The notes beneath the pieces were generated by a model. It did no database searches and had not been told where the DNA came from. It saw only the letters and a program-made list of their open reading frames with translations. From Candidatus Sumerlaea chitinivorans (GTDB lineage Bacteria; Sumerlaeota; Sumerlaeia; Sumerlaeales; Sumerlaeaceae), in the NCBI GenBank assembly GCA_003290465.1, contig CP030759.1:3172501-3236500 (forward strand): a DNA stretch of 64,000 nt. The letters run 5' to 3'. Shown in pieces: positions 14,604-21,465 of this stretch (positions within the stretch are counted from its first letter, which is position 1; every line of letters begins with the position of its first letter). The translations under genes and the position numbers were made by a program.

Positions 14604-14924
14604 ATGGTGTTGTGCGTGGCGGTGCCGAAGGACGAACGCGCAGAAGCTAAGGAGTCCGTATCGGAGGAGGAGTTGCTGGAAGATATTGCCGGCCGTATAT
14701 GCCAACGGCAAATGGCCTCACCAGCAATTTTTCTTCTCGAGTCGCTGAAGCCCGTGAATTTTATAGGCAGTCAGCTTATGCTTGCGCTGGGTCCGCTTGC
14801 AGGGCTGATTGTCGAGCCATCGCGTTGGGAACAGTTGGCCCACGCCCTCGAAAAGCGCAGCACCATTGAAAGGTTGATCCGGAAAATCGAAGAACGGGAG
14901 CGGGAACCATCGGTGCGCAACTGA
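14604..14924 (+). CDS. Conserved small protein at the head of the MutL/DUF6754 operon
   Basis: A 106-residue soluble, mostly helical protein that I do not recognise by name. It has an acidic N-terminal helix (SVSEEELLEDIAGRICQRQM), then a hydrophobic segment containing FLLESLKPVNFIGSQ and LMLALGPLAG, and ends in a charged helix rich in Glu and Arg. The KPxNFxGSQ motif looks like a conserved contact surface rather than a membrane span. The start is uncertain: ATG 14604 directly abuts AAAAGG, and in-frame GTG 14607 or TTG 14610 are possible. Its TGA overlaps the CTG that appears to start the MutL gene. First gene of a six-gene same-strand cluster, so its function is probably tied to that complex. 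Confidence 0.62.
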   Translation: MVLCVAVPKDERAEAKESVSEEELLEDIAGRICQRQMASPAIFLLESLKPVNFIGSQLMLALGPLAGLIVEPSRWEQLAHALEKRSTIERLIRKIEEREREPSVRN

Positions 14925-16702
14925 ATTGGATACTTGCTACGGATTGTGGCAGCACAACCACCAAGGCCATCTTGATAGGTCGAACCCCTCAGGGCTACCG
15001 CCTGATGGCTCGCGGCGAAGCGCCCACGACGGTGGAAGCTCCGTTCGACGATGTCACCGTCGGTGTCCGCAACGCGGTGCGCGAGCTGGAGGAGGTGACC
15101 AACCGCTGCCTTCTCGACGAAGAGGGGGTCTTGGTGCGACCATCCAGCCACGGGAGGGGAGTAGACGTCTACGTCAGCACCTCCAGCGCGGGTGGTGGTT
15201 TACAGATGCTGGTTATGGGGGTGGTGCGCTCGATGACCGCCGAAAGTGCGCAGCGAGCGGCCCTCGGAGCGGGGGCGATCGTCATGGATACCATCTGCAG
15301 CAACGATCGCCGGCCGACCTACCAACAGATTCAGCGGATCCGGCAACTGCGGCCCGACATGATCTTACTTGCCGGTGGTGTGGACGGTGGGACGGTCTCG
15401 CATGTGGCGAAGCTGGCGGAATTGGTGCGGGCAGCACGCCCAACGGCGCGCCTTGGCTCGGGTTATCGTCTTCCGCTTGTTTATGCAGGCAATCGCGACG
15501 CCGCAGCCGAAGTCCGCGCAATTCTCGGCGATCTTGTGGATTTCCATGAGGTCGAAAATGTACGCCCACGCTTAGAGCTGGAAAACTTGGGACCAGCCCG
15601 CGACGAAATCCATAAGCTGTTTATGGAGCACGTCATGGCTCAGGCACCCGGCTACGACAAACTCAAGGCCATGACCGATGCTCCGATTATGCCCACGCCC
15701 GGAGCGGTTGGGAAGCTGGTGGAAATCGTGGCGCGCGAGCGCGGCATCAGTGTTTTGGGCGTGGACATTGGTGGCGCAACTACCGACGTCTTCTCCGTCT
15801 TCCAAGGCAAATTCAACCGCACCGTCAGCGCCAATCTTGGGATGAGCTACAGTGTTGGCAATGTGCTCACAAGTGCAGGCTTTGCGAATGTGCGCCGTTG
15901 GTGCTGGATGGACCTTCCCGAAAATGAGGTGCGGAACCGAATCAAAAACAAGGTCATTCGTCCGACCACAATCCCGCATCTCTTAGAAGATCTCATCATC
16001 GAGCAAGCACTTGCTCGTGAAGCCCTACGGCTCTCGCTTGCTCAGCATGCGGAGTTTGCCACTACGCTAAAGGGGGTACAGATGCGGCGGACGGTGGCGG
16101 ACGCGTTTGCTCAGACGTCCACTGGCGCTACCCTTGTCAACATGATGGAGCTGGATCTCATCATAGGCAGTGGTGGCGTGCTCAGCCATGCCCCGCGCCG
16201 CGAGCAAGCTGCTCTCATGATGATCGACGCATTTGCTCCGTTAGGCGTTACCCAACTCGCTGTGGACAGCATTTTCATGATGCCGCACCTTGGGGTGCTC
16301 AGTGAGCTTGATGCGGAGATTGCCATGGAGGTCTTTTGGCGCGATTGCCTCATTCCTTTGGGTGCGGTGGTGGCGCCTGCAGGAAGAGCTCGGCCGGGCA
16401 AGCATCTGTTGCGGGCGAAACTTACGCGCGACGACGGAAGCGAGGAGACGGTTGAGCTCCGCGGGGGTGAACTTCTCCGTGTGCCTTTGGGCGAAGGTCA
16501 CAGTGCGACGCTGGAGATCGAACCGGCGTGGGGAGTGGATGTAGGCGCGGGCCGTGGGAAACGGTTGGTTCGCAAAGTTTGGGGAGGGCGCGTCGGCGTG
16601 GTCTTTGATGGCCGTGGCCGCCCGATTCAGTTTGCTTCAGGGGACGCCGACCGGCGAGAACAGTTGCGGTCGTGGAGTCGCGCAATCGGAGCGTTTGAAT
16701 GA
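14921..16702 (+). CDS. MutL/GlmL family ASKHA ATPase, apparent CTG start
   Basis: A 593-residue protein of the glutamate mutase L (MutL/GlmL) family, an ATPase fold related to hydantoinase A and actin/Hsp70. Phosphate-1 motif ATDCGSTTTKAI sits at residues 6-17, a second GVDIGGATTDVF around D282, and LAGGVDGG and GSGGVLSHAP form further nucleotide-binding loops. No in-frame ATG, GTG or TTG precedes the phosphate-1 motif before the upstream stop. The best start is CTG at 14921, overlapping the previous gene's TGA as CTGA; a later TTG at 14972 would delete the motif. Known MutL proteins are linked to B12-dependent mutases, but no mutase subunit is encoded here. Instead it heads a run of membrane proteins, suggesting an ATPase or chaperone for that complex (inference). 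Confidence 0.85.
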   Translation: MNWILATDCGSTTTKAILIGRTPQGYRLMARGEAPTTVEAPFDDVTVGVRNAVRELEEVTNRCLLDEEGVLVRPSSHGRGVDVYVSTSSAGGGLQMLVMGVVRSMTAESAQRAALGAGAIVMDTICSNDRRPTYQQIQRIRQLRPDMILLAGGVDGGTVSHVAKLAELVRAARPTARLGSGYRLPLVYAGNRDAAAEVRAILGDLVDFHEVENVRPRLELENLGPARDEIHKLFMEHVMAQAPGYDKLKAMTDAPIMPTPGAVGKLVEIVARERGISVLGVDIGGATTDVFSVFQGKFNRTVSANLGMSYSVGNVLTSAGFANVRRWCWMDLPENEVRNRIKNKVIRPTTIPHLLEDLIIEQALAREALRLSLAQHAEFATTLKGVQMRRTVADAFAQTSTGATLVNMMELDLIIGSGGVLSHAPRREQAALMMIDAFAPLGVTQLAVDSIFMMPHLGVLSELDAEIAMEVFWRDCLIPLGAVVAPAGRARPGKHLLRAKLTRDDGSEETVELRGGELLRVPLGEGHSATLEIEPAWGVDVGAGRGKRLVRKVWGGRVGVVFDGRGRPIQFASGDADRREQLRSWSRAIGAFE

Positions 16703-16850
16703 GAAAGCCGTTTTCGGAAATCTCAACGTCTTGGGGTTGTTTCGAGGCTCCTCGTCGCGTGTCGCCAGCTTGTTCCCATGGCGGGCGCGCGAGGTGGAAG
16801 CGACGGTTGGCACCGCGTAGTGCCCAAGTTTTGGGCGGAGGGAACGTGTG

Positions 16851-17969
16851 ATGGCTCACGCGTACACGCCCGGGCTCAAGGTTAGCGAGCGTACGGTGAT
16901 CCGCAAACGGCGCATGTTGCCGATTGCTGGCGAGGTACGAGTGCGACTCGGCGACCGTGTCCGCCCGCGCGACGTTGTGGCGCGCGCAGAGCTGCCGGGA
17001 AACGTCCAACTGGTGAACATTGCTCACCATCTTGGAATCGAGCCTTCGGACGTGCCGGCTAAAATGAAGGTTGAGGTGGGGGAGCGTGTTCGAAAAGGAC
17101 AAATCATCGCCGAAAATGTCGGCCTATTCGGGTGGTTCCGCTCTCACGTCGAAGCTCCGTGTGATGGGGAGATTGAAGCGTTGAGCAAGGTCACGGGGCA
17201 ACTTCTCATCCGTGAAAATCCCATTCCCTTGGAGTTGACCGCCTACGTTGGCGGCGAGGTGGTGGAGGTCATCGAAAACGAAGGTGTGGAAATCGCGACT
17301 GTTGGCGCCATGATTCAAGGGATCCTTGGCGTGGGTGGGGAAAAGCATGGCCGCATCGCGATTTGTGTCAAATCGCCGGACCAAGAGCTTCAACCCGAGG
17401 ATATTCCCTCAGATGCAGAGGGGTTGGTGTTGGTCGGTGGTGCAGTCGCAAGCTTGGCTGCCTATCGGCGCGCCTCCGAATGCGGAGCAACGGGTCTCGT
17501 GGTCGGCAGCTTCAGTGATCCTGATTTGGGAGAAATCCTCGGCTACGACCTTGGCATTGCGATTACGGGCGGAGAAAATCTCACCACAACCTTGATCATC
17601 ACGGAAGGTTTTGGTCGTCTGGCGATGGCGGAGCGCACATTCCAGCTTCTGCGGAAACTGGAAGGGAATGAAGCAAGCATCAACGGGGCCACGCAGATTC
17701 GTGCGGGGGTTATCCGCCCCGAGATTATCGTGTCCACAGAAGAATCTCCCGAAGATGTCAAGGAGATCGTCCAGACGGAGACGCGGGTGGGCACCCGCGT
17801 TCGCATTATTCGGGAACCTCATTTTGGGGAGATTGCGCGCATCAAGGCTTTGCCTCCCGATCCCGTTGTCATCGAATCGGGTGCCACCGTGCGCGTCATG
17901 GTGGTCGAATTGCCGAATGGAACCGAGCACGTGGTACCGCGAGCAAACGTGGAGCTAATCGAAGAATGA
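16851..17969 (+). CDS. Barrel-sandwich/KOW-like protein of the MutL operon
   Basis: A 372-residue soluble protein without a signal peptide. The N-terminal 130 residues read as two barrel-sandwich hybrid (biotinyl/lipoyl-like) units: RKRRMLPIAGEVRVRLGDRV and KVEVGERVRKGQIIAE with EAPCDGEIEAL. No lysine sits in a biotinylation context. The middle contains a Rossmann-like region (GLVLVGGAVASLAAYRRASE) and the C-terminal 60 residues look KOW-like (VMVVELPNGTEHVVP). ATG 16851 has GGAGGG 8 bases upstream; a GTG directly before it is also possible. It overlaps the next gene by ATGA (17966-17969), so translation is coupled. Possibly a soluble adaptor docking the MutL ATPase to the membrane proteins; this is inference from order. 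Confidence 0.68.
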   Translation: MAHAYTPGLKVSERTVIRKRRMLPIAGEVRVRLGDRVRPRDVVARAELPGNVQLVNIAHHLGIEPSDVPAKMKVEVGERVRKGQIIAENVGLFGWFRSHVEAPCDGEIEALSKVTGQLLIRENPIPLELTAYVGGEVVEVIENEGVEIATVGAMIQGILGVGGEKHGRIAICVKSPDQELQPEDIPSDAEGLVLVGGAVASLAAYRRASECGATGLVVGSFSDPDLGEILGYDLGIAITGGENLTTTLIITEGFGRLAMAERTFQLLRKLEGNEASINGATQIRAGVIRPEIIVSTEESPEDVKEIVQTETRVGTRVRIIREPHFGEIARIKALPPDPVVIESGATVRVMVVELPNGTEHVVPRANVELIEE

Positions 17970-19009
17970 CCCAGCCGAGCTTGATGCAACGATATCAGAC
18001 TGTTGGGGCTCTGAGCGCAGGTTGTTGGCGAAGGATCGCTCTGGGTGTGCTGGGTTGGATTCGGCTCCGTATTGCGCGCGGAGGGAAGCGTTACTTTAGC
18101 GCACACGGACTCACCGTATTATTATTAGTGATGAGCCTTTGTCCGTCGCTCAGCGAGGCAGCGCCCACGACCAATCGCCTGCTTCCTGCCACATGGGGCT
18201 ACCTTGATCTAACGAAGCTCCCGGTCCTCGTTGCGCTTGTTCTTTTTGGGGCCTTCTATTTCTACCTTGACCGCCGAATGCGCGCTGGCGCCCAGATCCA
18301 TCTCCGGCGACTGCCGGGCATTGATGCGATTGAAGAGGCGATTGGGCGCGCGACCGAGATGGGGCGCCCAGTCCTTTTCATTCCGGGAATCAACGATATT
18401 GATGACATCCAGACGCTGGCGGGCATCAACATCCTCTCGCACGTTGCTTATATTGCGGCTGAGTACGATACCCCGGTGATCGTTGCATGTCGTCGCTCGG
18501 TGGTGCTTACCATTTCTGAGGAGGTCGTGAAAGCCTCGTCGCTGGCAGCCGGCCGCCCGGAAAATTACATTCCAAACAACATGCGCTATCTGTCCGACGA
18601 CCAATTTGCGTTCACTGCGGGAGTCAATGGCATCATGTTGCGTGAGCGGCCGGCATCCTGCATTTATCAAGGATGTTTCTACAGCGAGTCGCTCATCCTC
18701 GCAGAAACGGGCTACGTCAGTGGGGCGATTCAGGTTGCAGGCACTGCGAATATCGCTCAGTTGCCATTCTTTGTCGCGGCGTGCGACTTCACCTTGATTG
18801 GCGAAGAGTTCTTTGCGGCGTCTGCCTACTTGTCGCGCGAGCCCACGATCGTGGCAAGTATTCGCGCCTCCGACCTCCTGAAAATGGTCATCCTACCGGT
18901 GATCTTGCTGGGAGTGGTGGGGGCGACGGTCGCGGCGACAGCTGGCGAGGCGACGTGGCTCGGAGCTTACAGCGTAAAATTCGTAGAGATCCTCAAGGAG
19001 TTGTTCTGA
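17966..19009 (+). CDS. DUF6754 membrane protein
   Basis: A 347-residue protein of the DUF6754 type, function unknown. It has an N-terminal hydrophobic segment (about 48-66), another at about 82-102 and one at about 308-330, enclosing a conserved soluble domain. The domain shows GRPVLFIPGINDIDDIQTLA, EYDTPVIVACRRSVVL, NMRYLSDDQFAFTAGVNGIM and CIYQGCFYSESLILAETGY, dense with conserved-looking Gly, Asp and Asn as in a ligand-binding or enzymatic site. It starts at the ATGA overlap with the previous gene and is followed after four bases by the next membrane gene. The family name rests on memory of similar sequences linked to MutL-like genes. Confidence 0.7.
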   Translation: MTQPSLMQRYQTVGALSAGCWRRIALGVLGWIRLRIARGGKRYFSAHGLTVLLLVMSLCPSLSEAAPTTNRLLPATWGYLDLTKLPVLVALVLFGAFYFYLDRRMRAGAQIHLRRLPGIDAIEEAIGRATEMGRPVLFIPGINDIDDIQTLAGINILSHVAYIAAEYDTPVIVACRRSVVLTISEEVVKASSLAAGRPENYIPNNMRYLSDDQFAFTAGVNGIMLRERPASCIYQGCFYSESLILAETGYVSGAIQVAGTANIAQLPFFVAACDFTLIGEEFFAASAYLSREPTIVASIRASDLLKMVILPVILLGVVGATVAATAGEATWLGAYSVKFVEILKELF

Positions 19010-19013
19010 CGCC

Positions 19014-19763
19014 ATGCGAACGCGTGTTCCAGTGTTCATCTCGGCCTTTGTCGGCGTCTTCATGATCTTGAAGTATTTTAGCACCGTGAAGGCGTTCACC
19101 GCGATTGCCGACGAGCTCGAGCAATGGGGCGTCGTCACGCTCTCGTTCTCGATCATCCTCGGCGTGCTGAACCTCATCAAGATCAACCTGAAAGCCGTTA
19201 TGGAGCGCAAAAAGGATTGGGGCTATAAACTGCTTCTGTTGGTGAGCATGTTCAGCATGATGATCGCCGGCGGGGTGAAGTGGTATCGCGACGAAGTTGC
19301 GGCACGCGCCTCCAAGGCGGTGGAAGCAGCCGTTGCTGCCGCTGCGGCAAACCCGACACCCGAAGCGCAACGCGCGGTCGAACTGGCCCGAGCTGCAGAG
19401 GCAGAGGCCTTAGCTGCGGCGAACCAAACAATGTTCCAGTTCTTTTTTGATAACTTCTACTTCCCACTGTCGGCGACCATCTTTGCGTTGCTGGCTTTTT
19501 ACGTGGCGAGCGCCGCATTCCGCGCATTTCGCGCAAAAAATGTGCATGCGACCCTGCTGCTGATCGCGGCGGTGATCGTCATGATCGGGCGTGTTCCCAT
19601 TGGTGGATATCTCTGGAAAGGATTTCCGTGGCTTCAGGAGTGGCTGATGACGTGGCCCAATACCGCAGGACAACGAGCGATCCAAATGGGAGCAGCCATC
19701 GGAATGATTGCCACGGGACTACGCGTCATTTTCGGGATTGAGAAACCTTACCTCAAGGGCTGA
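19014..19763 (+). CDS. Six-helix membrane protein with Ala-rich periplasmic or cytoplasmic helix
   Basis: A 249-residue membrane protein that I cannot assign to a family. Hydrophobic helices lie near residues 5-21, 39-57, 71-88, 150-169, 178-195 and 222-241. Between helices 3 and 4 is a 45-residue Ala/Glu-rich segment (94-138) that should form a long helix or coiled coil, apt for contact with another subunit. It begins four bases after the DUF6754 stop and its own stop (19761-19763) is four bases before the next start, consistent with stoichiometric production of one complex. Confidence 0.72.
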   Translation: MRTRVPVFISAFVGVFMILKYFSTVKAFTAIADELEQWGVVTLSFSIILGVLNLIKINLKAVMERKKDWGYKLLLLVSMFSMMIAGGVKWYRDEVAARASKAVEAAVAAAAANPTPEAQRAVELARAAEAEALAAANQTMFQFFFDNFYFPLSATIFALLAFYVASAAFRAFRAKNVHATLLLIAAVIVMIGRVPIGGYLWKGFPWLQEWLMTWPNTAGQRAIQMGAAIGMIATGLRVIFGIEKPYLKG

Positions 19764-19767
19764 GACC

Positions 19768-20655
19768 ATGGCAAAACCTGAGAGCCAGAGCCAACGAATC
19801 GAGTCCCTCCTCCGGGGTTTCGTGGGGCTGGATCGTCGTTGGATTTTTCTCACCTTAGGTTCGCTTGTATTACTCTTTTTGATCCTTCCCATCTCGATGC
19901 CAATCACCGTTTCCGAACAAGCGGCCTCGATGCATCGTGCCCTAAGCTCGCTAAAGCCGGGCTCGCGAGTTCACCTCTCGATTGATTACGGTCCGGGAAG
20001 CGAGGCCGAGTTGTGGCCGCAACACATCGCCATCCTTCGCCAGCTGCTTGAGCAGGACTGCAAAGTGATCTGCTCGAGCTTGTGGACCGACGGTCCACCT
20101 ATGATCGAGAAAGCGTTTCGGGTTGTGGTGGGCGAACTGGAGGAAAAAGGCATCAAGAAGGTGCGTGGGGTGGACTACGTAAACCTCGGTTTCAAAGCCG
20201 GCGACCGGGTCGCGATCGCAAAAATTGGTAGCTCGTTCAAAGAAACATTCCCCACGGATTATCAGGGCAACCGGACTGCCGAGCTTCCCATCATGCAAGG
20301 TTGGGACACCTACAAGGACATTGACATGCTGATCACGATCGCAGTCGGGGATCCGGGGGCTGTCGAATACATTCAGCAGGCGCAAAGTCGCTACAATGTT
20401 CCGATGGTTGCCGGCGTCACCGCCGTCATTTCGCCACAACTATATCCCTACTATCAGTCGCGGAACTTACTTGGTTTTTTGGGTGGGCTCGCGGGCGCGG
20501 CGGAGTACGAGAAACTTGTGGGGCGTCCGGGCTACGCCACGCGCGGCATGGTGATCCAAAGCGCTGTGCACATCCTGATCGTCGTGCTGGTCCTGCTTGG
20601 GAACCTTGCCCAGTTCCTGCTTTGGCGGATGGAACGCAAGAAGGAGGGCGTGTAG
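19768..20655 (+). CDS. Membrane-anchored protein with large extracytoplasmic domain
   Basis: A 295-residue protein with one membrane helix near each end (about 25-46 and 263-286) and a soluble domain of about 215 residues between them. The domain has an alpha/beta look: LSIDYGPGSEAELWPQHIAI, DCKVICSSLWTDGPPMIEKAF, KAGDRVAIAKIGSSF, DIDMLITIAVGDPGAVEYI and VPMVAGVTAVISPQLYPYY. It suggests a substrate-binding or receptor-like fold, but no family is recognised. The start at 19768 has AAGGG upstream and lies four bases after the previous stop; an open extension into the preceding gene is not needed. Fifth gene of the MutL operon. Confidence 0.72.
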   Translation: MAKPESQSQRIESLLRGFVGLDRRWIFLTLGSLVLLFLILPISMPITVSEQAASMHRALSSLKPGSRVHLSIDYGPGSEAELWPQHIAILRQLLEQDCKVICSSLWTDGPPMIEKAFRVVVGELEEKGIKKVRGVDYVNLGFKAGDRVAIAKIGSSFKETFPTDYQGNRTAELPIMQGWDTYKDIDMLITIAVGDPGAVEYIQQAQSRYNVPMVAGVTAVISPQLYPYYQSRNLLGFLGGLAGAAEYEKLVGRPGYATRGMVIQSAVHILIVVLVLLGNLAQFLLWRMERKKEGV

Positions 20656-20658
20656 GCT

Positions 20659-21465
20659 GTGGATAGCTTCTGGCAAATCATGGATGTGGTCGGCGTGTGG
20701 CTGGTCTGCTTCTTCACGCTGGCGGTGTTCAGCTTCCTCTATCGCGACAACCCAATTTATAAGGCAGTGGAGCACATCTACGTGGGGATCGCGGCGGGGT
20801 ATTACTTTTATCAAGCCTTCCGCGGCACGATCTATCCGAATTTTGTTCTCCATGTTGTGCGTGGAATGGACGAGATCGCAAAAGGGAATGCAGCGGCGTG
20901 GGCGACCCAATGGCGATGGGGGGCAGCCGTACTCGGCATCCTTTTGTTGTCGCGCCTGATTCCGTCCTGGAGCTGGCTCAGCCGCTGGCCCATGGCGCTC
21001 GTTGTGGGGGCGTTTGCAGCACTCAATCTTACAGGGTTTGCGAAAGCCAACCTTGTGGATCAAATCGGCGGAACCATGTTGCCTTTAGCCGGGCGCTTGG
21101 CTAACGGCAGCGTTCTCCCGTGGCTACCTCAGGCGCAGGCCAGCGCACCAAGTGCGTTCAATCACTTTGTCCTCATCGTAGGTGTGGTGTCGGTTCTCAC
21201 CTATTTCTTTTTTTCCACATCCCGGCGGGGGATTGTGGGGCGCCTCGGTACCCTTGGGATCTGGTTTGTCATGGTCACGTTTGGTGCGACCTACGGCAGC
21301 ATTGTGCTCGCACGAATATCGCTGCTCATTGGGCGCGCTACCAACGTTATGGACTACAATCTGCCGAAATATGGTTATCCTGCCTACGTGTGCGCTATCC
21401 TCGTGGTGGGTGGATTGCTGATCTGGCGCTGGAAGTTCTTCCGACCTGAGGAAGAAGAGCGCTAA
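20659..21465 (+). CDS. Polytopic membrane protein, last gene of MutL operon
   Basis: A 268-residue protein with about six to seven hydrophobic helices spread over its whole length and no recognised family. Conserved-looking features are FLYRDNPIYKAVEHIYVGIA in the first loop and a C-terminal RFxRPEEEER-like charged tail. It starts with GTG four bases after the previous stop, and GGAGG lies 12 bases upstream. It closes the six-gene cluster; a 128-base non-coding gap follows, without a clear terminator. The first-loop motif resembles proteins that sit near DUF6754 genes, but I cannot name it. Confidence 0.7.
   Translation: MDSFWQIMDVVGVWLVCFFTLAVFSFLYRDNPIYKAVEHIYVGIAAGYYFYQAFRGTIYPNFVLHVVRGMDEIAKGNAAAWATQWRWGAAVLGILLLSRLIPSWSWLSRWPMALVVGAFAALNLTGFAKANLVDQIGGTMLPLAGRLANGSVLPWLPQAQASAPSAFNHFVLIVGVVSVLTYFFFSTSRRGIVGRLGTLGIWFVMVTFGATYGSIVLARISLLIGRATNVMDYNLPKYGYPAYVCAILVVGGLLIWRWKFFRPEEEER

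Follow-up and report, generated by a model that had tools for sequence, protein, structure and literature searches.

Several described systems each resemble one part of the locus analysed here. GlmL/MutL (PF13941, NF040745) and Or-4 (NF040744), the ATPases of B12-dependent aminomutases, are alike to its ATPase in the ASKHA domain over 450 positions. The Rnf and Nqr complexes offer a parallel to its soluble protein p3, which has an RnfC_N/NqrA_N-like barrel-sandwich domain and is encoded beside membrane subunits, and PilM/FtsA-type ATPases are alike in that an actin-like (ASKHA) ATPase is coupled to membrane proteins. The ASKHA fold is common to FtsA, PilM and ParM. Group II ECF transporters are alike in logic, with one energiser and several exchangeable membrane modules per genome. 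In the open-access literature that we searched, no paper was found for DUF6754, PF20539 or PF13941, and it is within that scope that we call the present system undescribed; we also call it real and dedicated.

The window that we analysed is a stretch of 64,000 nucleotides from Candidatus Sumerlaea chitinivorans (phylum Sumerlaeota), whose genome of 3.29 Mb is a single contig. Seven genes on its forward (+) strand span positions 14604-21465. The first, p1 (14604..14924), encodes a small soluble protein of ~106 aa with a KPxNFxGSQ motif and overlaps mutL (about 14909..16702), which encodes p2, a long-form ASKHA ATPase with a C-terminal extension of ~120 residues. After 148 bp, the sole real gap within the set, comes p3 (16851..17969), a soluble putative adaptor with a barrel-sandwich hybrid domain and a KOW-like C-terminal domain; its gene overlaps by 4 bp that of the DUF6754 protein, p4 (17966..19009). 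The membrane proteins p5 (19014..19763), p6 (19768..20655) and p7 (20659..21465) follow at spacings of 4, 4 and 3 bp, p7 being polytopic with an FSFLYKDNPxY motif. No Pfam or NCBIfam family was found over its cut-off for p1, p5, p6 or p7. The original prediction had described a same-strand set of a MutL ATPase, p3, DUF6754 and membrane proteins, and all of these are present. Its title count of six genes failed, as there are seven, and its statement that gaps are mostly below five bases has an exception in the 148 bp between mutL and p3.

Profiles of all seven proteins were built by iteration from the window sequence, and about 100 neighbourhoods were fetched. The genes are commonly arranged as p1-mutL-p3-[DUF6754-p5-p6-p7]n. 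The gene after DUF6754 is p5 in 79 of 88 cases (median gap 9 bp), the one after p5 is p6 in 77 of 80 (median gap 0 bp) and the one after p6 is p7 in 77 of 85 (median gap -1 bp), which shows an almost invariant four-gene cassette. The soluble genes are also ordered, with mutL followed by p3 in 41/61 cases and p3 directly before DUF6754 in 31/46. p1, which is kept at 41 loci in the first neighbourhood set, stands directly before mutL in 36 of 47 cases and directly before DUF6754 in 7 of the 47. Some exceptions to the order are contig ends or reflect the limits of the simple ORF caller. Since the seven families keep the same order in distant genomes, they are genes and not chance frames.

The distribution of the system was measured in 291 genomes from more than 200 families, chosen around the window genome. 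DUF6754 is present in 77 of them, 65 of which lie outside Sumerlaeota, while MutL is found in 81, p3 in 74 and glmE, at convincing scores, in 5. DUF6754, MutL and p3 are all present in 73 genomes. For DUF6754 and MutL, 73 genomes have both, 4 only DUF6754, 8 only MutL and 206 neither (Fisher 5e-54); for DUF6754 and p3 the corresponding counts are 74, 3, 0 and 214 (Fisher 3e-66), so that p3 never occurs without DUF6754 in this sample. This near-perfect co-occurrence is shown by the counts themselves, and the p-values are indicative only because the genomes are related and not independent. Two genomes, G096 (one closed contig) and G115, have the membrane genes with no detected MutL or p3, which suggests that in some bacteria the membrane module may work unaided or be powered by something else. 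In two small phyla DUF6754 is present in all genomes searched (10/10 and 8/8), and a divergent form occurs in 14 of the 51 genomes of the phylum to which G098 belongs. DUF6754 is absent from all 14 control genomes, which helps to explain the lack of study. Omp85 occurs in 270 of the 291 genomes and leaves little contrast for a link to the outer membrane; the DUF6754 genomes without it are G098 and G239.

We also considered a defence system or mobile element. A PADLOC search of the system gave no match, PHROGs gave one negligible match, to a partition protein (0.0034), and no DUF6754 relatives were found on phage (50,697) or plasmid (72,556) records. On these grounds the candidate was rejected.

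The ATPase p2 meets membership of Pfam MutL (PF13941) with an E-value of 1.1e-126 and 423.7 bits against a gathering score of 27. It does not meet membership of the NCBIfam GlmL equivalog, where its score of 230.8 bits falls short of the required 475, and it is likewise far under the Or-4 equivalog cut-off. The ATP-site motifs ATDCGSTTTK, DIGGATTDVFS and GSGGVLSHAP are kept; residues G10, S11, T14, D282, G284, G418 and G419 are invariant in long MutL, whose mean column identity is 57% over 34 distant sequences. From the kept motifs we infer that the long MutL likely has an active ATPase site, ATP hydrolysis itself being an inference.

One rival explanation is that this MutL is an ordinary accessory protein of glutamate mutase or ornithine aminomutase, adjoining by chance an unrelated membrane operon. 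The Pfam MutL match speaks for it, and several findings speak against it. Besides the equivalog scores, the canonical short forms (GlmL/Or-4) make up one group in a quick tree, separate from the long form, and it is the short forms that adjoin mutase genes: those of L155 and L159 adjoin MutS- and MutE-like genes, and those of L154 and L160 adjoin large proteins resembling an ornithine aminomutase subunit, all of these neighbours being identified by eye only. The tree is a quick one, and its long branches leave exact placements unsure. Unlike GlmL and Or-4, the long MutL has the ~120 extra C-terminal residues and, as partners, p1, p3 and DUF6754 cassettes instead of mutase subunits; the succession of mutL by p3 and the MutL-p3 fusions described below also argue against the rival. 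The glmE family (PF06368) is absent from the window genome, and 76 of the 77 DUF6754 genomes lack it. The sole genome with both, G157, has three MutL genes, and its glmE lies beside a short MutL and not the long one. We consider this rival all but excluded, already contradicted by the co-occurrence data, and reject an association of the system with glutamate mutase. Two outcomes that would have refuted the original prediction thus did not hold: the order is not limited to this genome, as the same cassette occurs in dozens of families, and glmE is missing here and in nearly all DUF6754 genomes. Long-form MutL is liable to be labelled a glutamate mutase accessory protein where no mutase exists, and the analysis corrects this naming.

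Among individual loci, L060 (G167) has a truncated long MutL that was labelled short by its length and groups among the long forms in the quick tree. mutL is divided into two overlapping frames in L060 and in L007.

The start of mutL is unusual in the family of the window genome. No shared ATG, GTG or TTG is found at the usual MutL start site in any of the seven Sumerlaeota loci of that family, and all seven (window 14909-14911, L003-L008) have ATC there with a GGAG-like stretch upstream. In other phyla MutL mostly starts with ATG, typically 7-15 codons upstream of the TDCGST motif. The simplest reading, which we think likely and which is inferred from sequence alone, is a non-standard AUC start that overlaps the end of p1; if true, it would be a rare non-standard start codon. 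A start at CTG, TTG or CTA about 12 bases downstream of the ATC is a possible alternative.

p3 gives a weak match to Pfam RnfC_N, a barrel-sandwich domain, just below the cut-off (E 2.2e-5), and its profile weakly matches SPT5/NusG KOW domains and the barrel-sandwich region of RNA polymerase beta' among PDB sequences. The earlier description of p3 as barrel-sandwich and KOW-like is therefore plausible. A redox pump of the Rnf/Nqr kind is not met: only the barrel-sandwich stretch matches, below its cut-off, the RnfC model scores 15.5 bits against 246 needed, no flavin, quinone or iron-sulphur subunit was found, and p3 has no conserved cysteine that we could find. Several loci have genes for lipoate ligase and glycine cleavage as neighbours, which raised the question of whether p3 is lipoylated. 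The lysine that would be modified, at hairpin position 97, is not kept: of 36 sequences 26 have K, 8 have R (as does the window) and 2 have Q. A role as lipoyl or biotinyl carrier was therefore rejected. Neighbours of this kind are restricted to a subset of loci and are not constant; gcvP and/or lipoate ligase flank the system in L063, L064, L065, L069, L070, L072, L073, L124 and L126.

Six genomes (G119, G144, G153, G187, G278 and G290) encode proteins of 862-1034 aa that join a MutL domain to a p3 domain on its C-terminal side. All six carry at least two DUF6754 copies, and the fusion is an extra protein. This observed gene fusion gives independent support for the partnership of MutL and p3. 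The fusions (L113, L114, L115, L116, L117, L161, L162) stand alone, distant from membrane cassettes.

The other soluble protein, p1, has no family in Pfam, NCBIfam, PADLOC or PHROGs. Directly upstream of p1, ten clustered loci (L060, L061, L062, L073, L086 and five more) encode a small two-helix membrane protein of about 117-150 aa. It looks PH-domain-like by eye, reaches the cut-off of no Pfam family and is the sole extra gene that recurs. It is not seen in the window, and it is possibly an eighth component.

The membrane module is built around p4, which meets membership of Pfam DUF6754 (PF20539) with an E-value of 2.6e-103 and 345 bits against a gathering score of 27. Along the protein we find an N-terminal hydrophobic, signal-like segment, a short ectodomain, a membrane helix at ~residue 94, a Rossmann-like domain and a membrane helix at ~residue 316. 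Family-mean hydropathy gives 2 membrane segments each for DUF6754 and p6, 6 for p5 and about 6 for p7. Together with the distribution of positive charge, it predicts that the DUF6754 domain is cytoplasmic and the p6 domain outside, in the periplasm, each between two membrane helices. In many relatives FN3 repeats replace the short DUF6754 ectodomain after a leader-like N-terminus, which agrees with the predicted topology; the Sumerlaeaceae copies are without the FN3 part. In AlphaFold models (DUF6754 core pLDDT about 90 or above; p6 pLDDT 96.4, pTM 0.89) both domains are alpha/beta and Rossmann-like by element order. Fold searches gave no match with E <=0.001, for DUF6754 against the PDB and for p6 against the PDB and viral models, and neither matched a known transporter fold. 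The order of strands and helices looks alike in the two models; profile comparison gave only 1.6% probability, and we do not claim homology between them. Homology of p5 and p7 was rejected on comparison.

p7 is a conserved family, and one member (L109:11142-13268) has an insertion of several hundred extra residues between membrane segments. An in-frame TGA lies in a DUF6754 copy of two same-family genomes (G144:C102:6718-7410 and G280:C3:6234-6926).

A second rival explanation bears on this module. Here the long MutL would be a reactivase or assembly machine, as are GlmL, EutA and the diol-dehydratase reactivases, remodelling a membrane module that is itself an unknown enzyme with a Rossmann-like domain on each side of the membrane. 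In its favour, MutL belongs to an ASKHA reactivase-like family, many polar residues of DUF6754 are invariant as in an active site (R114, R128, E131, E186, Q213, R226, E241, E247, C273, D274, E280, D303 and K306), and among the closest structures to both domains, all of them weak matches, are alpha/beta enzymes that bind nucleotides and sugars. Against it, those structural matches are not significant (E >0.001, TM <0.45), no cofactor-binding family was detected, and glutamate mutase is missing from all but one of the DUF6754 genomes. It remains possible.

The cassette is multiplied in many genomes. DUF6754 has 1-7 copies per genome, with at least two in 35 of the 77; several genomes carry the cassette in tandem (three in a row in L081), and in several the cassettes are distant from mutL. 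Of the 74 genomes with p3, only G215 has more than one unfused copy, its second p3 being divergent and adjoining a divergent MutL. These copy numbers, as observed, are those of a shared energiser. In a FastTree of DUF6754 cores, same-genome copies fall in different branches, each pairing with the counterpart of another genome (e.g. L055/L064), which suggests old, retained and functionally distinct cassettes. Unlike ECF transporters, the seven-gene system has an ASKHA ATPase in place of an ABC ATPase, EcfT or S component; no Pfam or NCBIfam match to ABC ATPase or EcfT was found in any of the seven proteins, and ECF-type membership is not met. The neighbouring genes vary between loci, with no conserved substrate-handling gene among them, and are too inconstant to name a substrate.

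The copy numbers also bear on a third rival, a structural or cytoskeletal envelope complex in which actin-like long MutL would anchor or polymerise at the membrane and FN3 ectodomains touch the wall or surface layer. The fold shared with FtsA, PilM and ParM, the very weak PHROG match to a partition protein and the FN3 ectodomains of DUF6754 relatives speak for it. However, FtsZ, PilN/PilO and other cytoskeletal partners do not recur among the neighbours, none of the partner families of PilM/FtsA was detected, MutL is of a different ASKHA subfamily, and 1-7 cassettes per soluble module fit interchangeable specificity better than a scaffold. We regard it as unlikely.

The seven genes thus likely encode a dedicated ATP-dependent complex of the cell envelope. 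Partnership by genome context is shown; mutual binding of the products is inferred from that context. The original prediction, that an inner-membrane complex dependent on ATP forms a system of its own without relation to glutamate mutase, is supported, its physical complex and its role still being inference. As the best explanation of the whole, which we favour by a modest margin, a shared soluble ATPase module drives one or several membrane modules. Against it stand the inconstant neighbours, the membrane genes without detected MutL or p3 in G096 and G115, and the lack of a known transporter fold in p6 and DUF6754. The soluble module of p1, long MutL and the adaptor p3 would act in the cytoplasm, where MutL would hydrolyse ATP and p3 and p1 would couple it to DUF6754. 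The ATP-driven movement would then cross the membrane to p6, the membrane module having one Rossmann-like domain inside and one outside, and a single soluble module may serve membrane modules of differing specificity. As for the job, ATP-powered transport of an unknown substrate through the membrane or into it is an inference that ranks first, above remodelling of a membrane enzyme and, least likely, a scaffold; even so, we would not quite wager on it.

A conserved, multi-part, energy-using complex of such breadth without known function is rare, and here about a quarter of the sampled genomes carry a strongly conserved envelope system of seven parts, apparently dependent on ATP, that has no described function. 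A bolder reading, put forward tentatively and with doubt slightly outweighing belief, is that it represents an undescribed class of envelope machine, present across many phyla of bacteria and in every member of some, with an ASKHA (Hsp70/actin-fold) motor instead of an ABC, AAA+ or ion-driven one and one cytoplasmic energiser common to several exchangeable membrane modules. The shared-energiser model, if true, would add an ASKHA-powered class to the membrane motors of bacteria.
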